A DNA stretch of 11,064 nt from Dethiosulfovibrio sp. (lineage in GTDB: Bacteria > Synergistota > Synergistia > Synergistales > Dethiosulfovibrionaceae): contig JAQUTB010000031.1 of assembly GCA_028709985.1 (NCBI GenBank), forward strand, positions 1-11,064, read 5' to 3'. The translations under genes were made by a program, and so were the position numbers. The notes under the pieces were generated by a model. That model searched no databases, had not been told where the DNA came from, and saw nothing but the letters and a program-made list of their open reading frames with translations. Of the stretch, positions 1-11,064 are shown piece by piece (the stretch's first letter is position 1; every line of letters begins with the position of its first letter).

Positions 1-350
1 GGGGTAGAACTGTAGCGTCCGTAGTTGGCTATAGCTCGCTCGATCGATCTCCTGATACTGTTCATGTGGTCTATCTGCTGATCCAACCTATCTTTCTGGA
101 TGAAAAGCAAATCCTCCATAGCGGAGACGTCCTGTCTTTCCAGCTGTTCCTTGATCTCCTTTAGGGACATACCTAAAGTCTGGAGGTTTTGGATCATGTC
201 CAGCCTTGCGGACTGCTTGACGTCGTAATACCTGTACATATTGGAGTCGATAAACTGGGGAGTTAACAGTCCCATCCTATCGTAGAGCCGGAGGGTCTGA
301 ACCGACACCTGGTTGATCTTTGCCATCTCGCCGATGGATAGCATGTCCAT
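1..350 (-). CDS. MerR-family transcriptional regulator, BmrR/BltR-like, partial (C-terminus outside window)
   Basis: The minus strand encodes 116 codons starting MDMLSIGEMAKINQVSVQTL and leaves the window without a stop. Residues 4-73 form a MerR winged helix-turn-helix: SIGEMAKINQVSVQTLRLYD is the HTH, and YRYYDVKQSARLDMIQNLQ with LGMSLKEIKEQL is the wing and second helix pair. Residues 76-110 form the long dimerisation helix. The pattern resembles Bacillus BmrR, so a GyrI-like effector-binding domain may follow; this is inference, since that part is not in the window. There is no cysteine in the visible part, which argues against a metal- or redox-sensing MerR. The start at 350 is preferred because GAGGTG lies about 7 bases upstream; an ATG two codons later is possible. 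The gene is divergent from the ABC operon and may regulate it, itself, or both. Confidence 0.9.
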   Translation of the reverse strand, partial: MDMLSIGEMAKINQVSVQTLRLYDRMGLLTPQFIDSNMYRYYDVKQSARLDMIQNLQTLGMSLKEIKEQLERQDVSAMEDLLFIQKDRLDQQIDHMNSIRRSIERAIANYGRYSST

Positions 351-379
351 TAAAACACCTCTTTATGGTATAGTTTTAC

Positions 380-394
380 CGTCACCTTGTGACG
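380..394. promoter_or_regulatory. Perfect dyad CGTCAC-CTT-GTGACG in the divergent promoter region; candidate MerR operator
   Basis: The 77-bp gap between the MerR gene and the ABC operon contains a perfect 6+3+6 inverted repeat. It is flanked by TTTTAC on the left and TAAAGC on the right, 18 bases apart, so the dyad fills the spacer of a poor but possible plus-strand promoter. The other strand reads TTTAGA and TAAAAC 17 bases apart. MerR proteins typically bind dyads lying between the -35 and -10 boxes, which fits this position. Neither promoter matches consensus well, so the dyad is solid and its role is inferred. Confidence 0.5.
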
Positions 395-427
395 CTCTAA
401 AGCATCTTATGAGGAGGAGTTTAGGTT

Positions 428-1429
428 ATGTTATCTAAAGTACGGTCTTTAGTTCTGTTGATTTTGGCCTGTATGTGTACAGGTGCCTTTGCGTCGGAAA
501 GGTCGTTGGTGGTCTACTCCAGCGTGGACGAGGAAAACGCCTCCGCTATCCTCAAGGCTTTCACCGAGGACACAGGCATAAAGGTCAACATGGTGTTTCT
601 CTCCTCCGGCCCTGCTATGAGCCGTATCGAGGCGGAGAAGGCTAATCCTCAGGCGGACCTATGGTTCGGAGCTCCAAACGAGAACCACATAGTCGCCAAG
701 ACCAGAGGGCTCACCGAGCCCTACGTCTCCCCTGAGGCGGTGGATCTGGCCGATAACTTCAAGGACTCGGAGGGCTTCTGGCACGCTTTCTACATGAACC
801 CCCTGGGATTTGGGATACTGTACAAGGATCTTGAGAAGGCCGGGGTAGCTGAGCCACTTTCCTGGGCTGACCTGACCAAGGCCGAGTATAAGGGGCTTAT
901 CCAGATGCCCTCCCCTCAGTCCTCCGGCACGTCTTACGCCCTCATACAGACCTTGATAGCTATATTCGGCGAGGACAAGGCTTTCTCCTACATGAAGGAA
1001 CTCAACGCCAACGTTCAGACCTACACCCAGAGTGGCACAGGCCCCAGCCAGAACCTGGCCATAGGGGAGACCTCGGTTGCCATACAGTTCACCCCCGCCT
1101 TCCTCAAGCTGGTGGACCAGGGATTCCCCGCCAAGGTGGTCTTCCCCAAAGAGGGAGTTGGCTATGAAGCAGCCGCCATGTCCATCATAAAGGGCAGCAA
1201 GAACCTGGACGAGGCCAAGGCCCTGGTGGACTGGATGGTCTCCAGAAGAGGGCAGGAGGTCCTGAGCCAGGCCAAGACCTATTTCTTCCCCGTCCGGCCC
1301 GACGTCTCCGCCGGTGAGGGAGTTCCCTCTCTGTCGGAGATAAAACTGGTGGACTACGACAGAGAAAAGGCCGCAGCGGACAAAAAGCGGATCGTCGATC
1401 GCTGGGTCACAGAGGTTCTGGGACAGTAG
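428..1429 (+). CDS. ABC transporter periplasmic substrate-binding protein, iron(III)/AfuA-like family (COG1840 type)
   Basis: A 333-aa secreted binding protein that would capture a solute outside the membrane and deliver it to the permease encoded downstream. Residues 1-22 are a signal peptide (basic start, hydrophobic LVLLILACMCTGAFA) with a good signal peptidase I site after AFA. C15 in ILAC is a weak lipobox alternative. The mature protein opens with SLVVYSSVDEENASAILKAF and continues with TGIKV, ADLWFGAP and a C-terminal KALVDWMVSRRGQEVL helix, a layout typical of the FbpA/AfuA/PhnS-like group. No YY pair occurs anywhere, although classical ferric-binding FbpA uses adjacent tyrosines as iron ligands, so iron is not assured; phosphonate, polyamine or another small anion complex is possible. 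GGAGGAG 413-419 supports the start. The gene is separated from its permease by a 288-bp gap holding a repeat and a hairpin. Confidence 0.88.
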   Translation: MLSKVRSLVLLILACMCTGAFASERSLVVYSSVDEENASAILKAFTEDTGIKVNMVFLSSGPAMSRIEAEKANPQADLWFGAPNENHIVAKTRGLTEPYVSPEAVDLADNFKDSEGFWHAFYMNPLGFGILYKDLEKAGVAEPLSWADLTKAEYKGLIQMPSPQSSGTSYALIQTLIAIFGEDKAFSYMKELNANVQTYTQSGTGPSQNLAIGETSVAIQFTPAFLKLVDQGFPAKVVFPKEGVGYEAAAMSIIKGSKNLDEAKALVDWMVSRRGQEVLSQAKTYFFPVRPDVSAGEGVPSLSEIKLVDYDREKAAADKKRIVDRWVTEVLGQ

Positions 1430-1447
1430 GATCGAAAATCTGTTTTA

Positions 1448-1655
1448 AGGGCATCTCTAAAAGCGTTGCTCCTCGGAGAGATCGTTCCGACGAAGCCCAT
1501 TTGAGCCCGTATACTCGACCGAAACAGGGCACAGGACGTGCCCTCAGAGGCGGTTCGTACGGAACAGGCAGGTCGAGTATACGCTCGGGCGAAACAGGGC
1601 GCAGACGGGACGATCTCTCCGAGGGGACTCGAGTGTGAGTTTTTAGAGATGCCCT
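1448..1655 (+). repeat. Palindromic repeat element, copy A (208 bp, ERIC/MITE-like), inside the ABC operon
   Basis: The ends form a perfect 15-bp inverted repeat, AGGGCATCTCTAAAA at 1448-1462 and its complement ending at 1655. Inside it, an 18-base arm (CCTCGGAGAGATCGTTCC, 1471-1488) pairs with 1607-1624, and GTATACTCGAC (1509-1519) pairs exactly with GTCGAGTATAC further right. The centre holds a small hairpin, GGGCAC and GTGCCC around loop AGGAC (1527-1543), then GTTC and GAAC around GTACG. The dinucleotide TA flanks both ends (1446-1447, 1656-1657), as a short target duplication would. Related copies lie at 4459-4689 (same orientation) and 9328-9577 (inverted). Copy A lacks 46 bases that copy B has at 4512-4557. 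No transposase is encoded; open frames through the element are by-products of the palindrome. Confidence 0.92.
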
Positions 1656-1659
1656 TAGT

Positions 1660-1691
1660 ACGAAGGGTCCGGGCCCTCCCGGACCCTTCGT
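1660..1691 (+). promoter_or_regulatory. Intercistronic stem-loop between binding-protein and permease genes
   Basis: ACGAAGGGTCCGGG pairs perfectly over 14 bp with CCCGGACCCTTCGT around the loop CCCT. No T-run follows, so it is not a classical intrinsic terminator. Hairpins directly behind a binding-protein gene commonly protect the upstream mRNA or reduce read-through, so that binding protein is made in excess over permease; that role is inferred here. It sits just upstream of the permease ribosome binding site, immediately to the right of repeat copy A. Confidence 0.75.
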
Positions 1692-1703
1692 CATACCTGG
1701 AAT

Positions 1704-1712
1704 AAGGACGTG
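1704..1712 (+). promoter_or_regulatory. Ribosome binding site that supports the TTG start of the permease
   Basis: AAGGACGTGA differs at one position from the ideal AAGGAGGTGA and stands about 7 bases before TTG 1718. A GTG at 1710 is in another frame and meets a stop two codons later, so TTG is the likely start. Confidence 0.65.
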
Positions 1713-1717
1713 ATTAC

Positions 1718-3400
1718 TTGAGAAAAAGCCTTAGGGAGCTGAGACTGCTCTGTCGAGATCCACTGGTGGCTTTTTTGGTGCTATCCGTGGCGGTGGCCCT
1801 GATACTGTTCGTGGTCTACCCTCTGGGGATGGTTTTGGTGAAGAGCTTTCAAAACGTCGAGGGAGCCTTCTCCGTCGAGAACTACAGCCGTTTTGCCCAG
1901 TTTAAGTATCTCAAAAGCGCGCTGCTGAACAGCCTATCGGTAGGTGTCCTCACCGGCGTCATAGGGGTTTTGGTCGGCTACACCGCCGCCCTGACCATGG
2001 TCAGGACCAACCTGCCGTATAAGAGGTTTCTGCACCTGGTCTTCATACTGCCCATTATAGCCCCTCCCTTCACCAGTGCCCTCTCGGTGCTCATGCTCTT
2101 TGGCTCCAACGGTCTCATAACCAGAGGGCTTTTGGGGATAAGAAATTACTCTATCTACGGTTTTAAAGGGGTCTTAATATCCCAGGTCTTCACCTTCGCC
2201 CCTGTGGCCTATCTCACCCTCAGGGGAGTCCTGGAGTCGCTGAATCCCACGCTGGAGGACGCCGCCATGAACGTCGGGGCCTCTCGGTGGCAGACCTTCT
2301 GGAAGGTGACCTTCCCCTTGAGCCTTCCGGGGATAGCCAGCGCCTTTTTGGTGGTCTTCATAGAGTCTCTGGCGGACTTCGGAAACCCCCTTGTGTTGGC
2401 CGGGAGCCGCTTCCCTATGCTGGCCACCCAAGCCTACCTTGAGATAACCGGATCCTTCAATCTCCCACTTGGTGCCGCTCTGGCGGTGGTGTTGCTCGTT
2501 CCATCTGTGACCGCCTTCGTCATCCAGAGATACTTTATCCAGAGGCGACAGTACACCACCGTGACCGGCAAGCCGGTGGACTCCACCTCCAAGCTAATAG
2601 GCCCTGGGGCCAAGGTGGTCCTCCACGGCTTTTTGGTCCTATTCGCCCTGTCGGTGGCGCTGTTCTACGGTGTTATAGCCGTAGGGGCCTTCACCAAGGT
2701 CTGGGGTTACGACTTCACCTTCACCGCCGCCCATCTGCTCTACGCCTTCAAGGTAGGAGGCCAGACCATAAAGGACACCCTTATCATAGCGGTGCTCGCC
2801 ACACCCATCTCGGGGATAATGGGTATGCTCATAGCCTTCATGATAGTCCGGCTGTCCTTCCCTGGAAAGGGCCTTTTGGAGTTCGGCTCTATCCTCAACT
2901 TCGCCGTTCCAGGCACGGTGGTGGGAATCGGCTATATACTGGCCTTCAACCGACCCCCTGTGGTCTTGGTCGGAACCCTGACCATACTGGTGCTGAACTT
3001 CGTGTTCAGGTATATCCCTGTCGGGATCCAGTCCGGCGTGGCGGTCCTTCGGCAGATAGACCCATCAATAGAGGAGGCTGCTCAGAACCTTGGAGCCGAC
3101 GGAGTGACCACCTTCCGAAAGGTCACCTTGCCCCTGATAGCTCCGGCGTTCTTCTCGGGATTGGTGTTCGCCTTTGTCAGGGCCATGACCGCCATAAGTG
3201 CCGCCATATTCTTGGTCTCAGCCAACTGGAACCTCCTGACGGTCCAGATACTCAACCAGGTGGGGTCCGGCAGGCTTGGGGTCGCCGCGGCGTTTAGCGT
3301 CATACTGGTGTCCATAGTCCTGGTCGCCATAGGGATTATAGGAAAGCTCGTTCCGGGAAGGACCGGAGGAGCGTCAGCCATTCAGGTTCGAGAGGGGTAG
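1718..3400 (+). CDS. ABC transporter permease, fused two-domain type (FbpB/ThiP-like)
   Basis: A 560-aa inner-membrane protein that forms the whole translocation channel of the importer. It carries two binding-protein-dependent permease domains in one chain, each with several hydrophobic segments: the first at about residues 17-41 then 70-95, 105-127, 150-172, 205-232 and 250-272, the second beginning near 300. Both EAA loops, which dock onto the ATPase, are clear: EDAAMNVGAS through PGI at 180-206, and EEAAQNLGAD through PAF at 452-478. The fusion is normal for FbpB, ThiP and PhnV-like permeases. Translation probably starts at TTG. The next gene begins five bases after the stop codon, so the two are likely translated together. 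Confidence 0.9.
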   Translation: MRKSLRELRLLCRDPLVAFLVLSVAVALILFVVYPLGMVLVKSFQNVEGAFSVENYSRFAQFKYLKSALLNSLSVGVLTGVIGVLVGYTAALTMVRTNLPYKRFLHLVFILPIIAPPFTSALSVLMLFGSNGLITRGLLGIRNYSIYGFKGVLISQVFTFAPVAYLTLRGVLESLNPTLEDAAMNVGASRWQTFWKVTFPLSLPGIASAFLVVFIESLADFGNPLVLAGSRFPMLATQAYLEITGSFNLPLGAALAVVLLVPSVTAFVIQRYFIQRRQYTTVTGKPVDSTSKLIGPGAKVVLHGFLVLFALSVALFYGVIAVGAFTKVWGYDFTFTAAHLLYAFKVGGQTIKDTLIIAVLATPISGIMGMLIAFMIVRLSFPGKGLLEFGSILNFAVPGTVVGIGYILAFNRPPVVLVGTLTILVLNFVFRYIPVGIQSGVAVLRQIDPSIEEAAQNLGADGVTTFRKVTLPLIAPAFFSGLVFAFVRAMTAISAAIFLVSANWNLLTVQILNQVGSGRLGVAAAFSVILVSIVLVAIGIIGKLVPGRTGGASAIQVREG

Positions 3401-3405
3401 TTGAG

Positions 3406-4461
3406 ATGGAGTTACGCATATCGGAGGTATCCAAGGTCTTTCCGAGCCACGACGGAGGAGCGGTCGTTCGGGCGGTTGACTCGGTGGACCTGACCGTGGC
3501 CGATGGCGAGCTGGTTACCTTGCTCGGCCCCAGCGGCTGCGGAAAGACAACCTTGCTCAGGATGATAGCGGGATTTGAGGACCCATCGGAGGGGGATCTT
3601 TACTTCGGAGACAGGCGGGTTAACAACGTGGCCCCGAACAGGAGAAACGCCACCTTGGTATTTCAGTCCTACGCCATATTCCCCCATCTGAACGTCTTCG
3701 AGAACATCGCCTTCGGTCTCAGGCTAAAGGGCCTGAGGGAGGGGGATATTCGGTCCAAGATGGAAAAGGTGGTCCATATGGTGGGCCTAGGTGGCATGGA
3801 GACCCGTCGTCCCTCCCAGCTGTCCGGTGGGCAGCAACAGAGGGTGGCTCTCGCAAGGGCCATAGTGATGGAGCCAGAGCTGCTGCTTTTTGACGAGCCT
3901 CTGTCGAACCTGGACGCCAAGCTCAGAGAGCAGATGAGGATAGATATCCGCCGCCTCCAGAAGGCTTTGGGCATAACATCGGTCTACGTCACCCACGATC
4001 AGGCGGAGGCTATGAGCATCTCCGACAGGGTCGTGGTCATGAAGGATGGCCGTATAGAGCAATCCGGCTGCCCTGTGGAGCTCTACGCCAGGCCCAGAAA
4101 CCGTTTCGTCGCAGACTTTATAGGCAAGGCAAACTTCCTGGAGGGAACGGCCTCCGAGGGTGGGATTCTTCTGGGAGGGAAGTCCTATCCTATGGATACA
4201 GCTCCCTCGGAGGTCGGAGAGGTCCAGGTCGTCGCCCGTCCTGAGGCTGTGGTCCTTTCCCGGGACGAGGGCCATTTCCACTGCGATATAGTGAGGACCA
4301 CCTTCCTGGGAAATCTGGTCGAGTACGAGGTGGAATGCCCAAACCTGGGAACCCTGACGGTACACCAGGTCAACCCCATGACAGGAGAGCTCTTCCGTCC
4401 CGGAGAGTCCATCCAGGTCTCCCTGCGCCCAGAGACCCTGCATATACTGGAAAAAGAGTGA
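3406..4461 (+). CDS. ABC transporter ATP-binding protein (FbpC/PotA/UgpC-like, with TOBE domain)
   Basis: A 351-aa ATPase that would power the importer from the cytoplasmic face. All nucleotide-binding motifs are intact: Walker A GPSGCGKT (41-48), Q-loop Q87, signature LSGGQQQRVALARA (139-152), Walker B LLLFDEP (159-165), D-loop SNLDA and switch histidine H197 in VTHDQAEAM. Residues from about 240 onward form the TOBE-type regulatory extension typical of the CysA/PotA/FbpC group, ending LRPETLHILEKE. The start is preceded by GAGGGG, which lies within the end of the permease gene. The stop codon (4459-4461) touches the left edge of repeat copy B, so the last codons or stop could derive from that insertion; the protein is still of normal length for the family. 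Substrate cannot be told from the ATPase. Confidence 0.93.
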   Translation: MELRISEVSKVFPSHDGGAVVRAVDSVDLTVADGELVTLLGPSGCGKTTLLRMIAGFEDPSEGDLYFGDRRVNNVAPNRRNATLVFQSYAIFPHLNVFENIAFGLRLKGLREGDIRSKMEKVVHMVGLGGMETRRPSQLSGGQQQRVALARAIVMEPELLLFDEPLSNLDAKLREQMRIDIRRLQKALGITSVYVTHDQAEAMSISDRVVVMKDGRIEQSGCPVELYARPRNRFVADFIGKANFLEGTASEGGILLGGKSYPMDTAPSEVGEVQVVARPEAVVLSRDEGHFHCDIVRTTFLGNLVEYEVECPNLGTLTVHQVNPMTGELFRPGESIQVSLRPETLHILEKE

Positions 4462-4689
4462 CCCTCGGAGAGACCGTCCCGACGGAGCCCATTCGAGCCC
4501 GTATAGTCGACATGCCGTTGTGTAGTACGAATGGGGCGACAGGACGTCGCCCCAAGCCGAGGGGCACAGGAAGTGCCCTCCGAGGCGGTTCGTACGGAAC
4601 AGGCAGGTCGAGTATACGGTTGGGCGAGACAGGGCTCAGGCGGGACGGTCTCTCCGAGGGGACTCGAAGGTAAGTTCACGGGAAGCCCT
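4459..4689 (+). repeat. Palindromic repeat element, copy B (about 230 bp), between the convergent ATPase and pepT genes
   Basis: Same orientation as copy A. The 18-base arm CCTCGGAGAGACCGTCCC (4463-4480) pairs perfectly with 4642-4659. The inner arm GTATAGTCGAC (4501-4511) pairs with GTCGAGTATAC with one G-G mismatch. The centre carries two pentaloop hairpins: GGGGCGAC and GTCGCCCC around AGGAC (4533-4553), and GGGCAC and GTGCCC around AGGAA (4562-4578). The outermost arm seen in copies A and C is degraded: only fragments of similarity remain on the left, in the last ATPase codons, and CCCT at 4686-4689 on the right. The exact ends are therefore uncertain. A run of six T follows at 4692-4697, so the element could act as the plus-strand terminator of the ABC operon. 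Confidence 0.88.
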
Positions 4690-4700
4690 GGTTTTTTGAT

Positions 4701-5918
4701 TTAGGGTTTTACCGCCAGCTTAGCTATGGATATGATCGTCTCGGTGGCCTTCTCCATGGACTGGACCGGTATAAACTCGTACTTGCCGTGGAAGTTGTGC
4801 CCGCCGGTGAAGATATTAGGACAGGGCAGCCCCATATAGGACAGCCTGGCCCCGTCGGTGCCGCCCCTTATGGGCTCTACCGACGGGGGTATGCCGATCT
4901 CCTCCATGGCTTTTTTCGCCAGGTCCACGATGTCCATCCTGTCCCGGATCTTCTCCTCCATGTTGTAATATTGGTCCTTTATCTCGAGGGTGATCCTGTT
5001 TCCGAACTCCCGGTTTACCTGGGCCACCGCTCTTCTCACGAAATCCTTTTTATCCTCGAAGAGCTTTCTGTCGTGGTCCCTTATGATGAACTTCATGACG
5101 CTTTCCTCCACGAGGCCCTTGAAGGTGTGGAGGTGGATAAAGCCCTGGTAGCCCTCGGTCTTCTCCGGGACGTCCGTGGAGGGCATCAGCTCCGCCAGCC
5201 TCATGCCTATCTGGATGGAGTTGATCATCTGATCCTTGGCTGTCCCTGGGTGGACGCTCCTGCCCTGTATATTCACGGTGGCGGATGCTGCGTTGAAGTT
5301 CTCGAACTCCATCTGTCCGAGCGGCCCGCCGTCGACTGTGTAGGCCCAGTCGGCGTCGAAGCCCTTAACGTCGAAGCGATCCGCCCCCCTGCCTATCTCC
5401 TCGTCGGGGGTGAACCCTATTCTTATGGTGCAGTGGGGTATCTCGGGATGGTCCTTCAGGTAGGCAACCGCGGAAAGGATCTCGGCGATACCGGCCTTGT
5501 CGTCGGCCCCAAGGAGCGTAGTCCCGTCGGTGACTATGAGGTCCTGGCCTACGTAGTTCTTCAGACAGGGAAAATCCGAAGGGGACAGGGCCATTTTCCC
5601 TGCCTTATCCAGGATGACGTCTCCCCCGTCGTACCTTTCGACTATTCTGGGAGACACGTTCTTTCCCGATACGTCAGGCGCTGTGTCCATATGGGCTATG
5701 AAGCCTATCACCGGCCCGTCGGAGTTCCCGGGGAATGTGGCTGTGACGTAGCCGTTTTCGTCCACCGAGGGGTCTTTAAGCCCCATATCCTCCATCTCTT
5801 TGACCAGCATCCTGGCCAGGTCCCACTGACAATCGGTGCTGGGACAGGTCTTGGACGATTCGTCCGATGTGGTGTGTACCTTTGCGTACCTCAGAAAGCG
5901 ATCCACTACGTCGTACAT
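4701..5918 (-). CDS. pepT: Peptidase T (tripeptide aminopeptidase)
   Basis: A 405-aa M20-family metallopeptidase, close to the 408 aa of E. coli PepT. It removes the N-terminal residue from tripeptides in the cytoplasm using two metal ions, probably zinc. Metal and catalytic residues stand where expected: H76 and D78 in HMDTAPD, D139-D140 in GADDKAG, E173-E174 in TPDEEIG, D196 in TVDGG, and the distal histidine in GGHNFHGKYEF (374-377). The dimerisation lid lies between about 205 and 320, and RGGTDGARLS at 351-360 is the late conserved loop. The frame is open to an ATG at 5963, but the start at 5918 matches family length and has AAAGGAAGGG just upstream. The gene stands alone, convergent with the ABC operon and divergent from two small genes, which suits a general peptide-catabolism role. 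Confidence 0.96.
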   Translation of the reverse strand: MYDVVDRFLRYAKVHTTSDESSKTCPSTDCQWDLARMLVKEMEDMGLKDPSVDENGYVTATFPGNSDGPVIGFIAHMDTAPDVSGKNVSPRIVERYDGGDVILDKAGKMALSPSDFPCLKNYVGQDLIVTDGTTLLGADDKAGIAEILSAVAYLKDHPEIPHCTIRIGFTPDEEIGRGADRFDVKGFDADWAYTVDGGPLGQMEFENFNAASATVNIQGRSVHPGTAKDQMINSIQIGMRLAELMPSTDVPEKTEGYQGFIHLHTFKGLVEESVMKFIIRDHDRKLFEDKKDFVRRAVAQVNREFGNRITLEIKDQYYNMEEKIRDRMDIVDLAKKAMEEIGIPPSVEPIRGGTDGARLSYMGLPCPNIFTGGHNFHGKYEFIPVQSMEKATETIISIAKLAVKP

Positions 5919-5923
5919 AAAAT

Positions 5924-5933
5924 CCCTTCCTTT
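5924..5933 (-). promoter_or_regulatory. Ribosome binding site of pepT
   Basis: On the minus strand AAAGGAAGGG stands five bases before ATG 5918. It decides in favour of this start rather than the in-frame ATG at 5963, which would add 15 residues without family support. Confidence 0.7.
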
Positions 5934-5954
5934 CCTCAAAAAAACATCCCCTCT

Positions 5955-5985
5955 ATAATACACCTGACTCCGTCGATAGTATAAT
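5955..5985. promoter_or_regulatory. Candidate overlapping divergent promoters for pepT and the small-gene pair
   Basis: On the plus strand TATAAT (5980-5985) is a perfect -10 box about 38 bases before the ATG at 6024; at 17-base spacing its -35 would be AATACA (3 of 6 to consensus). On the minus strand TATTAT (5960-5955) is a good -10 box about 37 bases before pepT; at 17-base spacing its -35 would be TATACT (3 of 6). Each weak -35 overlaps or touches the other promoter's -10. The -10 boxes are clear, the -35 boxes are poor. Confidence 0.35.
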
Positions 5986-6023
5986 GGAGGCAGCGATGGT
6001 TTTTTGCGAAGGGGGGGCGGTTT

Positions 6024-6215
6024 ATGGGAAAACTGATATCTCCTGACCCGGATATGTGGGGAAATCCGGTCCGTAGGGGAGCTGTCGAGGAGAAGCTTAG
6101 GGATAGACAGGATACAGCCCGCTACGACCGGAAAAGGTATCTCCTCACTGTGGCGGTCGTGGCGGTCCTTCTGTCGCCTTTTGTCGTAATAGCGTTTAAG
6201 ATGCTTCTGAGCTGA
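6024..6215 (+). CDS. Small single-span membrane protein of unknown function (63 aa)
   Basis: I do not recognise this protein. It has a charged, hydrophilic front (MGKLISPDPDMWGNPVRRG, then VEEKLRDRQDTARYDRKR) and one C-terminal hydrophobic segment at about 40-61 (YLLTVAVVAVLLSPFVVIAF), ending KMLLS. With arginines and lysine directly before the span, the front should face the cytoplasm, giving a tail-anchored-like topology. A purine-rich AAGGGGGGGC stretch stands about 5-10 bases upstream. The next gene follows after 14 bases, so the two probably form a small operon. No cysteine, histidine or enzyme motif is visible. Confidence 0.72.
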   Translation: MGKLISPDPDMWGNPVRRGAVEEKLRDRQDTARYDRKRYLLTVAVVAVLLSPFVVIAFKMLLS

Positions 6216-6229
6216 AAGGAGAGGTTAGG

Positions 6230-6472
6230 ATGTCTATAAGAGGATTTCAGATGATGATGCAGGTCCACATCCCAGTCACAGAGCACCACGTTATCTCCAG
6301 GGATATCGTCCGCAACTACGGTGATAGAGAAGAGATGGAGATGAATATGATAAACTACATTAACAATATAAGAGAGAACGACCAGATAGGCTTTGGCGAC
6401 GATATTATTTTCCTCCCCTCTGGAATGGGCAAAAGAGCGGTTGTGGAGTTCACCTATAAGGTCACGGACTGA
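6230..6472 (+). CDS. Small soluble protein of unknown function (80 aa)
   Basis: I do not recognise this protein. It is acidic, methionine-rich and free of cysteine, with no membrane span or signal peptide. The front MSIRGFQMMMQVHIPVTEHH looks like a beta strand, residues 22-52 are probably helical (ISRDIVRNYGDREEMEMN and on), and the end alternates as strands (IIFLPSGMGKRAVVEFTYKV). This would give a compact alpha/beta fold. AAAGGAGAGG lies just upstream. It shares an operon with the small membrane protein before it, so the two may work together at the membrane; that is inference. A hairpin starts four bases after the stop codon. Confidence 0.75.
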   Translation: MSIRGFQMMMQVHIPVTEHHVISRDIVRNYGDREEMEMNMINYINNIRENDQIGFGDDIIFLPSGMGKRAVVEFTYKVTD

Positions 6473-6475
6473 CGT

Positions 6476-6518
6476 TTAAACGGCGAGGAGAGGGATCAGC
6501 CCTTTTCTCGCCGTTTAA
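6476..6518. terminator. Hairpin terminator shared by two convergent genes
   Basis: TTAAACGGCGAG pairs perfectly over 12 bp with CTCGCCGTTTAA, and GGG with CCC inside the loop can lengthen the stem. It starts four bases after the 80-aa gene's stop. The convergent regulator gene ends inside the loop (stop at 6496-6498), so the right arm is also its last coding bases. There is no strong T-run on either side, so termination efficiency is uncertain. Confidence 0.65.
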
Positions 6519-9291
6519 GTAATTGATCCTCTATGGAGTCCAGAAAATCCATGGACCGATCTCTCTTGACGAGCCACGTGCCGGAGAAACGGGCCCTCTT
6601 GATATGTCCTGTCGCCCCATCCATATCGCCTTTTCCGTGGCAATCGTAGGCGCAGAGGGCGTTGAAAATGACCCCTAGGTTGCCGAAGATAACCCCGTCC
6701 TTATGCGTCTTGACCTGGGAGAGGCTCTCCGACAGGCCGTTGAAATCCTTTTTTAGCCACATGAGATAGGCCATCATTATGTGGATAACCCACCTCCCCT
6801 GGTGGATCTCCCCCTTTTGTAACCAAGTCAGTGCCCTCTTTAGATGGACCTCCGCCGAAACAGTATCTTCGCTGTCGAGGGCGATCTTTCCCATGGAGCT
6901 CTCCACCATGGCTGAGAGGGAGCTGTATCTCTGCCCCAGGTTCCTGAGGTCCTCCAGAATCTCAAGGGATAGAGAGAGGTTCTTTCGCCCCTCTTCGATG
7001 GAGCCCTTTCGGGCCATGGCTACCCCCTTCATCCTCAGTGCGATGGATCGGCTAAGCTGATCTCCTTCGCAGAAACGCTCCATATCCTCCCCGTAGCGAG
7101 CCAGGAGGTCCTCGTCCCCTGTCCTGATGGCCAGAAGGCAGAGCCCATGAAGGCACTCGGTCGCCAGAGCCGAGTCTCGGCGTTCCTGGCATTCCTCCAG
7201 TGTCTTGGTCAAGTGCCTTTTGCCTCTCTCCAGATCCCCTGTCCACAACCAGTGGAACCCCGTAAGGGCCTGGAACCGGCTCTCCAGGGGGCGAAGCGAA
7301 ATGCGATCCCCTACGAACCTATGAAAAAGAGCCTGTATCTGAACCGTCAGCCTTTCTATCTCTTTCGTCCAGGTCCCAGTCTGCTCGACCTTTTTAAGGA
7401 CTCCGTCCTCTATCGGGGGAAATCCCTCACATCTTGATCTAACCAGTAACCTTAGGTAGCGTATATGGATCTCTATCTGCTGCTCAAGGGATCCTCCTTC
7501 TTTGCCCCTGGTTATGTCTCTGAGGCAGAGGGTTGGCGAATAAAATCCCTGAGGGTCTCTCTTAAGGGATTTAGCCAGCATCCTCTGGGAGACAAAGTGC
7601 CTCTTGAGTTGAGGCGCAGACCTACGAAAAAAGGCCCTTATCTGAGGATGGACCACCGCTAGTGCTGCGTTGCCATCGAAGGATATATCCGCCTTCAATA
7701 GGTCCATCCTCTCCAGTGTTACCAGCTCTTTCTCCAGGTCTTTATCCTTTATGTGCTCTTTGAGCGTATTTAGTGAAATTGGCTCGTCTATAATAGACAG
7801 TATTTCCATCAGCTCTATTTGAAGGGGTGAAAGTCTGTTGGATATTGCCCTTATGGAAAACTCCAGCCTGTCACCTAAATGTTCAAGTCCCTTTCCCAGG
7901 GCATAGAGCTCCGAAAGGGCCGACAGACATACGGGCAAGCCCAGGGTCTCCTCGTATATAAGTTCGTCCTCGTCGGGCAAAGGTCCATCCTCAGCGATAC
8001 CGAGTACATGACGACAGAATATTCCGCACTCTCTTGCCCCGAAGGGTAGGATTTTTATGGCTTTGTATCTTATCCTGCCTTCCGCAGCCATGGCACCAAG
8101 CCATCTTTCGTTGCTGCCGAAGGTCTCCGGGTGGTCCACCATCAGGACTGTGAGGTTTTCTGGGTTTGACGACAGAACTTTCTTCATTATTACCATGTCA
8201 TCTTGTCCTATAAACCTCATCTCGTCTAGAAAAAAGGTCATCCTTCCCTCTTGAGCTCTTATGGATATAAAGTTGGCTATCTCTTTGCTCTGTTCCTTTA
8301 AGGGGACGTCCTCCTTCAGGTTCAGGCCGTATCTTCTTGCCACCTGGTAGAGATCCTGCCATGGGTTGTCCCTGTTTTGGTGGGATATCCTGCACACTAA
8401 AGATTTACCCATCATGTCGCTGTGGTCCCTCAATATCCGATTCAGAATCGCGGTCCTGCCGCTTCCCTCCGCCCCCCAAAGGGAGATACAAAGTGGTCTC
8501 TCGTCCTGTTCCGCTATAAGCTTCAATATCTGGGCCTTCTCGTTGTCCCTACCCCAGAGGTCCTTCGATGGATCCCTCCTTTTATGGGTTGGCATCGAGT
8601 CCAGCCTTTGGAATATAGACTTATAGAGGTCGGTCGTCTCAGGAGAGGGATCTATCCCCATCTCGTTTCTCAGCCTGGCTGATAGGGCCGCGTAGGTCTC
8701 GACTATTCGGGACAGGTTTCCCTGCTTTTCCAGAGCTCCCATAAGTTTTTTGGCGATCTCCTCGTCCCAAGGGGCGAGAGAGATCGCGTTGGTCAGCAAA
8801 GCTATCGTACGCTCGTCTTCGCCGGACAGACTTGCTTTTTCCGCCTGTGAGATCAGCTTTTTAACGTAGAGCTCCCTGAAATGATCCCTTTGTGTCTGGA
8901 CCCATTGATTGAACTCCTCCATACCGTCCAGGTAAAAACCCTCCAGGAACGGCAGCCCTAGCCTCTTCAGATCTCTGTCCCCTAAGACTCCCATATCGGG
9001 AAGAAAGTCCAGGTCGCTTCTTATCTTACCCTGCGCTATGGATATGCGGCTGTTGTTCGACAGTATCGTCGAGCGGTCCAGGGCGGACCTCAGCTGATAG
9101 AGGGCGTTTCTGAGGTTTTTGGCCCCAGATCTCTCGTCCTTGTCGGGCCACAGATGCTGGGCCAACCAGCTCCTGGACACGGATTCCTCAACTATCAACA
9201 TATAGGCCAGGGCTTCCACTTTTTTAAACGAAAAGGTTACAGGTTCACCTCTGAAACTCAACGACGGTGGTCCAAAAAGCCTAGCGTACAT
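6496..9291 (-). CDS. Large BTAD-domain transcriptional regulator with STAND/AAA-like ATPase core and TPR-like tail
   Basis: A 931-aa one-protein sensor-regulator with the SARP/AfsR-like order of parts. Residues 1-95 are an OmpR-type winged-helix DNA-binding domain (LAQHLWPDKD then AKNLRNALYQLRSALD). Residues 96-232 are the bacterial transcriptional activator (BTAD) helical domain, ending RLRNEMGIDPSPETTDLYK. Residues 245-460 are a P-loop ATPase: Walker A-like GAEGSGRT (273-280), Walker B TFFLDE (353-357), LTVLMVDHPET (380-390) as sensor 1, and GLPVCLSAL (451-459), matching the GLPL motif of STAND proteins. A second winged helix lies near 490-545, and TPR-like helical pairs fill roughly 660-931. 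The Walker A lysine is arginine (R279), which is unusual. STAND regulators normally switch on by binding a ligand and nucleotide; the signal and targets are unknown. GAGGTGAT supports the start. The nearest candidate target is the divergent chemoreceptor gene. Confidence 0.9.
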   Translation of the reverse strand: MYARLFGPPSLSFRGEPVTFSFKKVEALAYMLIVEESVSRSWLAQHLWPDKDERSGAKNLRNALYQLRSALDRSTILSNNSRISIAQGKIRSDLDFLPDMGVLGDRDLKRLGLPFLEGFYLDGMEEFNQWVQTQRDHFRELYVKKLISQAEKASLSGEDERTIALLTNAISLAPWDEEIAKKLMGALEKQGNLSRIVETYAALSARLRNEMGIDPSPETTDLYKSIFQRLDSMPTHKRRDPSKDLWGRDNEKAQILKLIAEQDERPLCISLWGAEGSGRTAILNRILRDHSDMMGKSLVCRISHQNRDNPWQDLYQVARRYGLNLKEDVPLKEQSKEIANFISIRAQEGRMTFFLDEMRFIGQDDMVIMKKVLSSNPENLTVLMVDHPETFGSNERWLGAMAAEGRIRYKAIKILPFGARECGIFCRHVLGIAEDGPLPDEDELIYEETLGLPVCLSALSELYALGKGLEHLGDRLEFSIRAISNRLSPLQIELMEILSIIDEPISLNTLKEHIKDKDLEKELVTLERMDLLKADISFDGNAALAVVHPQIRAFFRRSAPQLKRHFVSQRMLAKSLKRDPQGFYSPTLCLRDITRGKEGGSLEQQIEIHIRYLRLLVRSRCEGFPPIEDGVLKKVEQTGTWTKEIERLTVQIQALFHRFVGDRISLRPLESRFQALTGFHWLWTGDLERGKRHLTKTLEECQERRDSALATECLHGLCLLAIRTGDEDLLARYGEDMERFCEGDQLSRSIALRMKGVAMARKGSIEEGRKNLSLSLEILEDLRNLGQRYSSLSAMVESSMGKIALDSEDTVSAEVHLKRALTWLQKGEIHQGRWVIHIMMAYLMWLKKDFNGLSESLSQVKTHKDGVIFGNLGVIFNALCAYDCHGKGDMDGATGHIKRARFSGTWLVKRDRSMDFLDSIEDQLLKRREKG

Positions 9292-9327
9292 GGATCATCA
9301 CCTCAAATATGGGGTCTTGCGAACTAT

Positions 9328-9577
9328 AGGGGATCTCTAAAAACTCACATTTGAGTCCCTCGGAGAGACCGCTCCGCCTGCGCCCTGTTTCGCCCAAACA
9401 TATTTTCGACCTGCCTGTTCCGTACGAACCGCCTCGGAGGGCACGTCCTGTGCCCCCTCGGCTTGGGGCGACGTCCTGTCGCCCCATTCTACTACACGAC
9501 GGCATGTCGAAAATACGGGCTCAAATGGGCTTCGTCGGAGCGATCTCTCCGAGGATCAGCGTTTTTAGAGGTCCCCT
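9328..9577 (-). repeat. Palindromic repeat element, copy C (250 bp), inverted relative to A and B
   Basis: The terminal arms AGGGGATCTCTAAAAAC (9328-9344) and its near-complement ending at 9577 pair with one mismatch. The dyad extends outward as TATA on both sides, so the exact ends and the duplication (AT, or TA with one extra base in the element) are uncertain. The 18-base arm at 9358-9375 pairs with 9537-9554 apart from one position. Both pentaloop hairpins are present: GGGCAC and GTGCCC around GTCCT (9439-9455), and GGGGCGAC and GTCGCCCC around GTCCT (9465-9485); on the minus strand the loop reads AGGAC. The inner arms are AT-rich (ATATTTTCGAC with GTCGAAAATAC) where copy A has GTATACTCGAC with GTCGAGTATAC. 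The copy separates the regulator and chemoreceptor start regions. Confidence 0.92.
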
Positions 9578-9726
9578 ATAATATCTCACAAATCATCTGA
9601 CAATGTCAAATCGCGTCAAAAAGATCGTCCATAGGCAGAAGACGCCAATTTTATACTTTGGTTGTAAAGTTATACATAAAGCGGTTCTGAGACAATGCAG
9701 GTCCGTATTGAAGGGAGTGAAGGTGA
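9578..9726 (+). promoter_or_regulatory. Leader region of the chemoreceptor gene; candidate promoter, no clear consensus
   Basis: This stretch is AT-rich compared with its surroundings. It holds the dyad TGACA-A-TGTCA (9598-9608), a second dyad ACTTT-N6-AAAGT (9655-9670) and a -10-like TATACA (9671-9676) without a good -35 box. TATAAT at the very edge of repeat C (9577-9582) also lacks a -35 partner. I see no convincing sigma-28 flagellar promoter. AGGGAG (9712-9717) is the ribosome binding site of the gene at 9727. Confidence 0.3.
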
Positions 9727-11064
9727 ATGGGGTTTCTCAACTATATGAGGAGGATTTCAATCCGAGCTAGGCTGGTAATTCTTGTGTTTCTCATGATAGC
9801 CTTTTCAGGCCTGACCTCGTTCATACTGGTGGAGGCCCTTAACTCGGTTTCGGCCATGGTAGGAGATCTCTACGGTAGGGGCTCTAAAGCTGCCGTCACC
9901 GCCTACGAGGCTGCGGACGGCATGAACCAGGTCGCGGTTAACCTCTACAGGGCATTGAACGCGTCGGAGTCTGACGTCAGGAAAAAGTATGGCAGGATGG
10001 TTATGGAGGGACACAAGGCTCTGGGAGGCGCTCTGGACCGCTTTGGAAAGCTGGACCTCAGCGCGAACGGCAGGTCCTTGTACGAAAAGTCGTTCAAGCT
10101 CTACAAGGAATGGAGCCCTATGACCGATTCCTTGGTCTCAGTCCTTGAAAGAGGGGGCTCTCACCAGGAATTTATGGCTATAGCCTCTTCCGGCTCAAGC
10201 ATGACCGTAAAGCTGGATGAGTCCCTGAAAGAACTGGTTAAGGCCGCCTCGGCCAGCATAGAGCAGGTCTACGGAAACATCCTTGTCAGGAGGGATTCAA
10301 CGAAGAGGGAGGCTATATGGATAGTCGTCTCGATGACAGCCCTGTCTATCCTGCTATCAGCGCTGGTGGTTCTGTCGATCTCTCGCCCCGTGGGGGCTAT
10401 CGTCAAGGCTATCCGAACGGTCGCGGATAGTATGGACCTTTCCCACAGAGGCTCTGGTGCAGGTAACGATGAGATCACCGTTATATCAAACGCACTGAAT
10501 TCCCTGTTCGACGCCTTCGAGGGCGCCATGATAAAGGTCAAAGACATGTCCTGCGAGCTATCCGGGTATGCCCAGACCTTTTCAGCCACAGCTGAGGAGG
10601 CCAACGCCACTGTGGAGGAGGTTATGGCCCAGGTCGACCGCACCGGAGACATGGTCGGGAACCTGGCTGCCAGCACCGAGGAGATAAACGCAAGCGTGGA
10701 GGAGGTCGCCGCTGGGTCCCAGTCCGCGGCCAACAGAAGCGTGGATGTAGCCAGCCAGGTCGAGGACGCGCGGAGATCGGGGCAGGAGGGGCTGCTGTCG
10801 GTCAAAAAGGCGGTTCAGGCGGTAATAAAGGTGGCGGATGAGTCTAGAAGCTCCATGCACAGGGTGAGGGACCTCGGAGTGAGAGCTCAGGAGATTCAGG
10901 CCTTCGTCAGCGATATCGGGTCTATAGCAGATCAGACCAACCTGCTGGCGCTGAACGCCGCCATAGAGGCGGCCCGCGCCGGAGAGGCGGGGCGCGGATT
11001 CGCGGTCGTAGCCGACGAGGTAAGAAAACTGGCCGAGTCCTCCAGCCAGTCCGCCGAGAAGATC
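9727..11064 (+). CDS. Methyl-accepting chemotaxis protein, partial (C-terminus outside window)
   Basis: 446 codons are visible, running off the window end without a stop. The start ATG follows an in-frame TGA (9724-9726), so the start is certain among the ATG choices near it. Domains in order: a basic N-terminus, TM1 at about 16-36 ([20 protein letters not shown]), a mostly helical periplasmic four-helix-bundle-like sensor at 37-195, TM2 at about 197-219 ([20 protein letters not shown]), a HAMP domain at 219-275 ([20 protein letters not shown]), then the long coiled-coil signalling domain. The highly conserved hairpin tip that binds CheA and CheW is complete: [20 protein letters not shown], then [18 protein letters not shown] (400-439). 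EE/AA-rich heptads such as [13 protein letters not shown] and [12 protein letters not shown] look like methylation-type helices. It would sense an extracellular signal and control the flagellar motor; the ligand is unknown. Confidence 0.95.

Follow-up and report, generated by a model that had tools for sequence, protein, structure and literature searches.

The RNA family TwoAYGGAY (Rfam RF01731) has been predicted to be a CsrA-binding small RNA (sRNA; PMC4333381). The passages on this family in Weinberg et al. 2010 list it as a probable RNA that is probably not cis-regulatory, with human gut, γ-Proteobacteria and Clostridiales as its sources (PMC2864571); Rfam, in contrast, types it as cis-regulatory. 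E. coli CsrB, which we used as a yardstick, belongs to the same Rfam clan (CL00106). Here we describe three copies (A, B and C) of a long palindromic element in a stretch of 11,064 nucleotides from Dethiosulfovibrio sp. of the phylum Synergistota (assembly GCA_028709985.1, contig JAQUTB010000031.1, positions 1 to 11,064 of the forward strand), hereafter the window. The copies belong to a family of non-autonomous mobile elements (miniature inverted-repeat transposable elements, MITEs) of this genus. They bear marks of mobility, share a conserved fold with an RNA signature on one strand, and retain GGA in their loops. In our judgement these MITEs probably scatter putative CsrA-binding RNA modules, the cargo being of the TwoAYGGAY type with a long stem, a junction and two GGA hairpins. 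That the element is a mobile structured RNA is well supported, and its predicted binding of CsrA is probable.

The assignment to RF01731 comes from two of the copies. Copy C matched the family with 60.0 bits (9385-9537, minus strand; cmscan, cut-off 43), and copy B with 43.5 bits against the same cut-off (4480-4632), in this case only with laxer filters. Copy A gave no RF01731 match even at E values up to 1. B and C align with the model over its full length, and these two copies display its features, namely the long stem, two tandem GGA hairpins, an AG linker and CGG after hairpin 2. Since their loops are one base short of AYGGAY, we call the window copies a TwoAYGGAY variant. The relevant features of the window are:

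1449..1654, plus strand: copy A, MITE retaining its two terminal inverted repeats, first hairpin lost by internal deletion
1445-1448 and 1655-1658: flanks of copy A, TTAA and TTAG, a decayed 4-bp duplication
1527..1543, plus strand: remaining GGA hairpin of copy A (hairpin 2), loop AGGAC at 1533-1537
4462..4660, plus strand: copy B core, starting directly 3' of the ABC ATPase stop codon (4459-4461)
4533..4553, plus strand: copy B hairpin 1, GGGGCGAC-AGGAC-GTCGCCCC
4562..4578, plus strand: copy B hairpin 2, GGGCAC-AGGAA-GTGCCC
9329..9576, minus strand: copy C, complete MITE, 248 bp
9465..9485, minus strand: copy C hairpin 1, loop AGGAC (9473-9477)
9439..9455, minus strand: copy C hairpin 2, loop AGGAC (9445-9449)
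9325..9328, strand not applicable: TATA target duplication left of copy C
9577..9580, strand not applicable: TATA target duplication right of copy C
9580..9609, minus strand: promoter-like TTGACA-18-GATATT, reading into copy C in its structured orientation, towards the BTAD regulator gene

A and B form a direct repeat of 115 nt with 90% identity, and the inverted pairs B/C and A/C are 91% and 90% identical over about 100 nt. Copy B has no left terminal repeat, and its right end is decayed, fading to about 4689. The predicted fold is very stable, and in B and C the starts of the two GGA loops are 27-28 nt apart. A preliminary description of this DNA, made from its letters, had reported three palindromes of a family that it could not name. 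The palindromes are real, and the arm sequences it quoted are present in the window; the family does have a name, given that C and B match RF01731. The common stem plan it proposed stands for the arms, with the corrections that A is without the first hairpin and B without the left terminal repeat. The two GGA hairpins, which rank among the most conserved parts, had not been singled out, and the terminal inverted repeats and the flanking duplications of C and (decayed) of A had been missed.

Copy number and mobility of the element

The copy B query (231 nt) returned at least 40 places in the 2.04-Mb draft genome to which the window belongs, with 40 of 67 candidate stretches scored. The best non-self E value was 6.7e-93, so the three-copy repeat lies far beyond chance. 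RF01731 matches numbered at least 24, 9, 4, 46, 36 and 7 in the genus members G000, G001, G002, G003, G004 and G005, respectively, all of these counts being lower bounds because 51 candidates per genome were scored. No RF01731 match was found among the 51 candidates scored in G006, the seventh genus member; despite this, G006 contains diverged copies with the same MITE ends. A Dethiosulfovibrio genome in three contigs (2,576,359 bp) is described in its report as having been kept from closure by a large number of repeats (PMC3035263).

Complete copies are about 250 bp long and carry the end GGGCAYCTCTAAAAAC together with its inverted counterpart. Exact 4-bp target duplications flank 33 of 71 non-redundant two-ended copies (shuffled flanks: mean 4.2, maximum 11), and exact duplications of 2, 3, 5 or 6 bp stay at background level in the same set. 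With a one-base slip allowed, the 4-bp matches rise to 36 (shuffled 6.8) and the 3-bp matches to 52 (shuffled 17.9), the latter being partly pieces of 4-bp matches. Empty sites point in the same direction: the locus of copy C is unoccupied in G003 and G004, each of which has a single TATA where the window has two. The matches to the flanks of copy A lie 89-123 nt apart in G001, G002, G005 and G006, as compared to 301-325 nt in the window, although the joined-flank alignment in G002 is less clean than that for C. G004 holds a 263-bp copy at the place that corresponds to copy A, and, since A is missing the first hairpin, we regard A as an internal-deletion copy. The element is thus short, non-coding (as judged from the open frames of the window only), bounded by terminal inverted repeats, flanked by target duplications and present in many copies, as expected for a MITE. 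No autonomous partner with inward-facing ends 0.8-3 kb apart was found among 36 ends in G001 (1 mismatch allowed) or among 100 of 123 ends in G004 (2 mismatches allowed).

Two further observations concern insertion and decay. An element lies at the intergenic place of copy B in G001 (C1:770730-770993, L094) and in G002 (C7:6697-6957, L099), in the opposite orientation in both cases, which suggests repeated insertion there. G004 also contains inverted-end pairs of 50-74 bp with the same terminal repeats (C1:775689-775738, 96744-96817 and 308612-308684), which are probably deletion derivatives.

The genes of the window encode three ABC transporter components (solute-binding protein, permease and ATPase), a peptidase of the M20 type, a regulator with a BTAD domain and a chemotaxis receptor. 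Copy A is located between the genes for the binding protein and the permease, and copy C between the divergent genes for the BTAD regulator and the chemotaxis receptor. An 80-aa open frame at 6230-6472 (plus strand) gave no Pfam match at E ≤ 0.001.

Fold, strand signature and GGA hairpins

The fold was examined in an alignment of 41 diverse sequences (<96% identity) from 82 distinct cores, from which four truncated or rearranged rows had been dropped and to which copy C and two G006 copies had been added. In this alignment 98.5% of 2733 cells are paired and 25 of 67 pairs show changes on both sides, a number matched by none of 500 shuffles. Sliding the partners by 1-3 columns left 5-13 both-side pairs and 35-45% of cells paired, a comparison that favours the true pairing because the consensus structure was derived from the same sequences. 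Among 136 distinct cores, both-side changes occur in 28 of the 67 pairs.

Template switching of DNA or correction of one arm by the other can also produce paired changes in a palindrome. In an RNA strand G·U is tolerated and A·C is not, a difference to which DNA-level processes are blind. Since a palindrome can be corrected at the DNA level, we relied on this strand test, with a single count per pair, type and genome and with the commonest type of each pair excluded. Read in A/B orientation, the core contains G·U and A·C events at 60:29 (p 0.0013), as opposed to 34:37 in the terminal repeats (58 rows; core versus terminal repeats, Fisher 0.016). The 136 distinct cores gave 96:51. Because the copies share ancestry, these counts are not independent and the p-values are only guides. 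Since G·U outnumbers A·C in the core, whereas the terminal repeats show no such excess, we take the A/B orientation to be the RNA strand, and the core fold looks selected as RNA. The preliminary description had suggested selection for, or copying through, a folded RNA or single-stranded DNA and had hinted at the A/B orientation as the transcribed strand. The strand signature of the core supports both selection on a folded RNA and this orientation, and the both-side changes support the former. The paired changes hold throughout the genus. Since the outermost arms are transposon ends without a strand signature (34:37), however, not every paired change is evidence of RNA.

Both GGA hairpins are strongly constrained and rank with the best-conserved parts of the element. 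Across the 136 distinct full-length cores, which come from loci of seven genomes (20 partial places excluded), non-majority bases amount to 1.2-1.6% in the two hairpins, compared to 6.6-8.5% in the P1, P2b and P3 arms; a short helix, P2a, reaches the conservation level of the hairpins (1.3%). GGA is retained in 134 of the 136 cores in hairpin 1 and in 133 in hairpin 2, where part of these cores were found via RF01731, which favours intact hairpins. The 62 distinct copies taken from DNA-match lists show the same picture, with 0.7-1.6% non-majority bases in the hairpins versus 5.0-6.7% in the arms, and GGA in 61 (hairpin 1) and 59 (hairpin 2) of these copies.

Hairpin 1 occurs as ACAGGACGT (121 copies), ACAGGATGT (3), ACAGGAAGT (3) and seven rarer forms (8 copies), with one gap. 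The three frequent variants correspond to the CsrB repeat CAGGA(U/A/C)G, which is reported together with the placement of GGA in hairpin loops in the relevant part of PMC7652899. The same source gives ACA, GGA and GU as conserved parts of the CsrA consensus from systematic evolution of ligands by exponential enrichment (SELEX). Hairpin 1 carries all of these parts; the SELEX consensus is one base longer between ACA and GGA. As in CsrB-type RNAs, the element thus presents GGA in the loops of at least two hairpins, except in copy A, which has one.

A second element and the distribution of CsrA

Three genomes of the genus g20 (G053, G054 and G057) contain an element with the ends CCTAAATCCGCAGG, 5-bp duplications and two hairpins. 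The duplications are present in 13 of 16 elements, each read once; this count covers loci with clear ends only, for which 35 rows comprise both strands and two boundary variants. The hairpin stems differ from those of the Dethiosulfovibrio element, and the loops are hexaloops. All 80 loops in 40 distinct copies read ANGGAN, with A, G, G and A invariant. In either hairpin each of the four bases occurs at position 2, and two or three different bases occur at position 6. These 40 copies were taken from the DNA-match list, and two of them (L323, L325) are also RF01731 places. ANGGA is the recognition pattern of CsrA proteins. The Dethiosulfovibrio and g20 MITEs therefore have unrelated ends and the same double GGA hairpin fold. 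ANGGAN hexaloops are also found in G168, which has one RF01731 place (64.9 bits). The matches in G018 and G035 cover model positions 45-113 only, that in G035 with 40.4 bits being below the cut-off, and look like a less certain further relative. G018, in another family, also contains an inverted pair of a GC-rich palindromic repeat (C2:75716-75783 and 77697-77764); its loops read AGGAU and AGGGA, and it may be a third type of element.

With the two scans combined, 12 of 185 phylum genomes contain RF01731 matches at E ≤ 0.001, G035 among them although below the family cut-off. The phylum-wide scan alone, with stricter filters and 14 candidates scored per genome, identified 11 genomes and missed G000. 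CsrA is encoded in all 12 positive genomes and in 116 of the 185 phylum genomes (association by genome, p 0.003). Within g20, the three genomes that encode CsrA have 29-56 matching stretches each, and the two that do not (G055 and G056) gave no element match with every candidate scored. In the source genome, csrA lies directly behind a putative fliW gene. The CsrA protein of this genome can be aligned to solved CsrA structures and has retained L4 and R44, which are marked as RNA-binding residues in PMC7652899.

TwoAYGGAY also occurred in 4 of 39 viral stretches scanned with Rfam, these 39 being part of 60 that hold the test pattern:

L273:2821-2940, TwoAYGGAY in a viral contig
L292:4591-4710, TwoAYGGAY in a viral contig
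L269:465-584, TwoAYGGAY in a viral contig
L278:7875-7939, TwoAYGGAY in a viral contig

The L273 loops read AUGGAU, and an open frame in this contig is presumably MutS-like. At the DNA level, L273 has a match in a single phage record and a single plasmid record, both from Pseudomonas, and 0 places in E. coli. C4 antisense RNA matches are also present in L273 and L292.

Proposed mechanism, rival explanations and known systems

We infer that copies of the element would be expressed, bind CsrA and act as sponges. An insertion would be transcribed, usually from a neighbouring promoter, and the two GGA hairpins of a copy would bind the two faces of one CsrA dimer like a clamp. Transcribed copies would then be scattered CsrA sinks, CsrB-like in effect, that titrate CsrA; alternatively, they may be CsrA-responsive sites within host mRNA. 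RNase III could cut the long outer stem and so release the core from host transcripts. Copy C is a candidate for such an arrangement: the promoter-like block directly ahead of it recurs almost unchanged at the empty sites of G003 and G004, and copy C may therefore have inserted into the 5' leader of the gene for the BTAD regulator. More tentatively, and with somewhat less than even confidence, we propose that unrelated bacterial MITEs (at least two families, with 4-bp and 5-bp duplications) carry CsrA-binding RNA modules as a standard cargo, so that transposition would disperse CsrA sinks or responsive sites and reset the dosage of a global regulator, and that such elements persist only where CsrA is present.

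This proposal would matter in several ways. TwoAYGGAY is a named RNA with a predicted function, and its occurrence as mobile cargo in dozens of copies would give it CsrA as a concrete partner candidate as well as a route for spreading. Mobile DNA would have an added way to tap a global post-transcriptional regulator, and the Synergistota elements would be CsrA-binding RNA candidates for this phylum. Among the papers listed in our literature searches, no title on TwoAYGGAY concerns mobile elements, and none was seen to describe a transposon with a CsrA-binding RNA as its cargo.

Several observations weigh against this interpretation. The loops of the window copies are the pentaloops AGGAC and AGGAA instead of the hexaloop AYGGAY, and copy A retains a single GGA hairpin. 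Promoter-like matches in the window occur at chance level (6 found, 5.2 expected), which is why we treat the TTGACA-18-GATATT block as a lead only. The strand test has no power in g20 (G·U:A·C 2:2), where both-side changes occur in only 1 of 33 pairs, this family being too uniform. For the Dethiosulfovibrio copies, their relatedness deprives the counts of independence. The association with CsrA is not significant by genus (4/4 versus 36/62 genera, p 0.11), and element-negative genomes were screened with a capped number of candidates, so that misses are possible. Finally, we looked for an orientation preference relative to neighbouring genes and found no clear one (47:32 for the upstream and 40:39 for the downstream side, with 14 of 93 undecided on crude gene calls), as would be expected of a transposon and also of a module that needs only to be transcribed.

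An unlikely alternative is that the element acts purely at the DNA level, the palindrome being kept for a transposase or for cruciform formation or replication, and the conserved hairpins reflecting recent spread from few sources. This explanation agrees with the genuine terminal repeats and duplications, with the absence of a strand signature from these repeats (34:37), and with the fact that paired changes could stem from template switching or from correction between arms. The RNA-strand signature of the core (60:29, 96:51) and the high conservation of the internal hairpins do not, nor does the finding that two elements with unrelated ends share a fold in which g20 varies only at the N positions of ANGGAN. 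We give still less credence to a structured 3'-UTR (untranslated region) or terminator-like element that acts on mRNA ends or stability without CsrA, as has been argued for other dispersed palindromes. Such a role would fit the very stable fold, the start of copy B right at a stop codon, and the MITE insertions in 3' untranslated regions described for Coxiella (PMC5896051). On the other hand, a simple terminator scan did not call A, B or C, orientation relative to genes is not clearly biased on the 3' side, and an invariant A-GGA with a free N is not predicted by this model.

It is about equally improbable that the genus has a resident gene for a CsrA-binding sRNA and that the dispersed copies are inert debris. 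L034 (G002), L035 (G001) and L036 (G005) have strongly divergent yet complementary outer arms and no recognisable terminal repeats, and are possibly resident non-mobile genes. However, GGA and pairing are kept across 136 distinct dispersed copies, which recent transposition could explain in part, and the orthology of L034 and L035 is only putative. We therefore favour MITEs that carry a putative CsrA-binding RNA module, an interpretation that draws on comparative sequence evidence.

Among known systems, the preliminary description had likened the element to ERIC; taken broadly, this holds, as the element is short, palindromic and dispersed, the family itself being a MITE with an RF01731 core. 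The intergenic repeats of Pseudomonas fluorescens (R0, R2, R200 and others), described as dispersed and partly MITE-like (PMC2718517), are again similar by description. So are QMITE1 and QMITE2 of Coxiella (sRNAs CbsR3, CbsR13 and CbsR16), MITEs with about 50 copies that are reported to give rise to structured sRNAs (PMC5896051), although the word CsrA is absent from the main text of that paper; this likeness to the Dethiosulfovibrio MITE rests on description and not on sequence. CsrB-type sponge RNAs share with the element GGA in hairpin loops, the CAGGA(U/A/C)G repeat (PMC7652899) and clan CL00106. They differ in having many sites on one regulated gene, whereas here there are two sites per copy on many mobile copies, with putative neighbouring promoters only. 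The closest relative is TwoAYGGAY itself, which B and C match over its full length with the same long stem, tandem GGA hairpins, AG linker and CGG. In contrast to that family as described, the RNA found here is MITE-borne, present in dozens of copies and equipped with the pentaloop AGGAC instead of AYGGAY.

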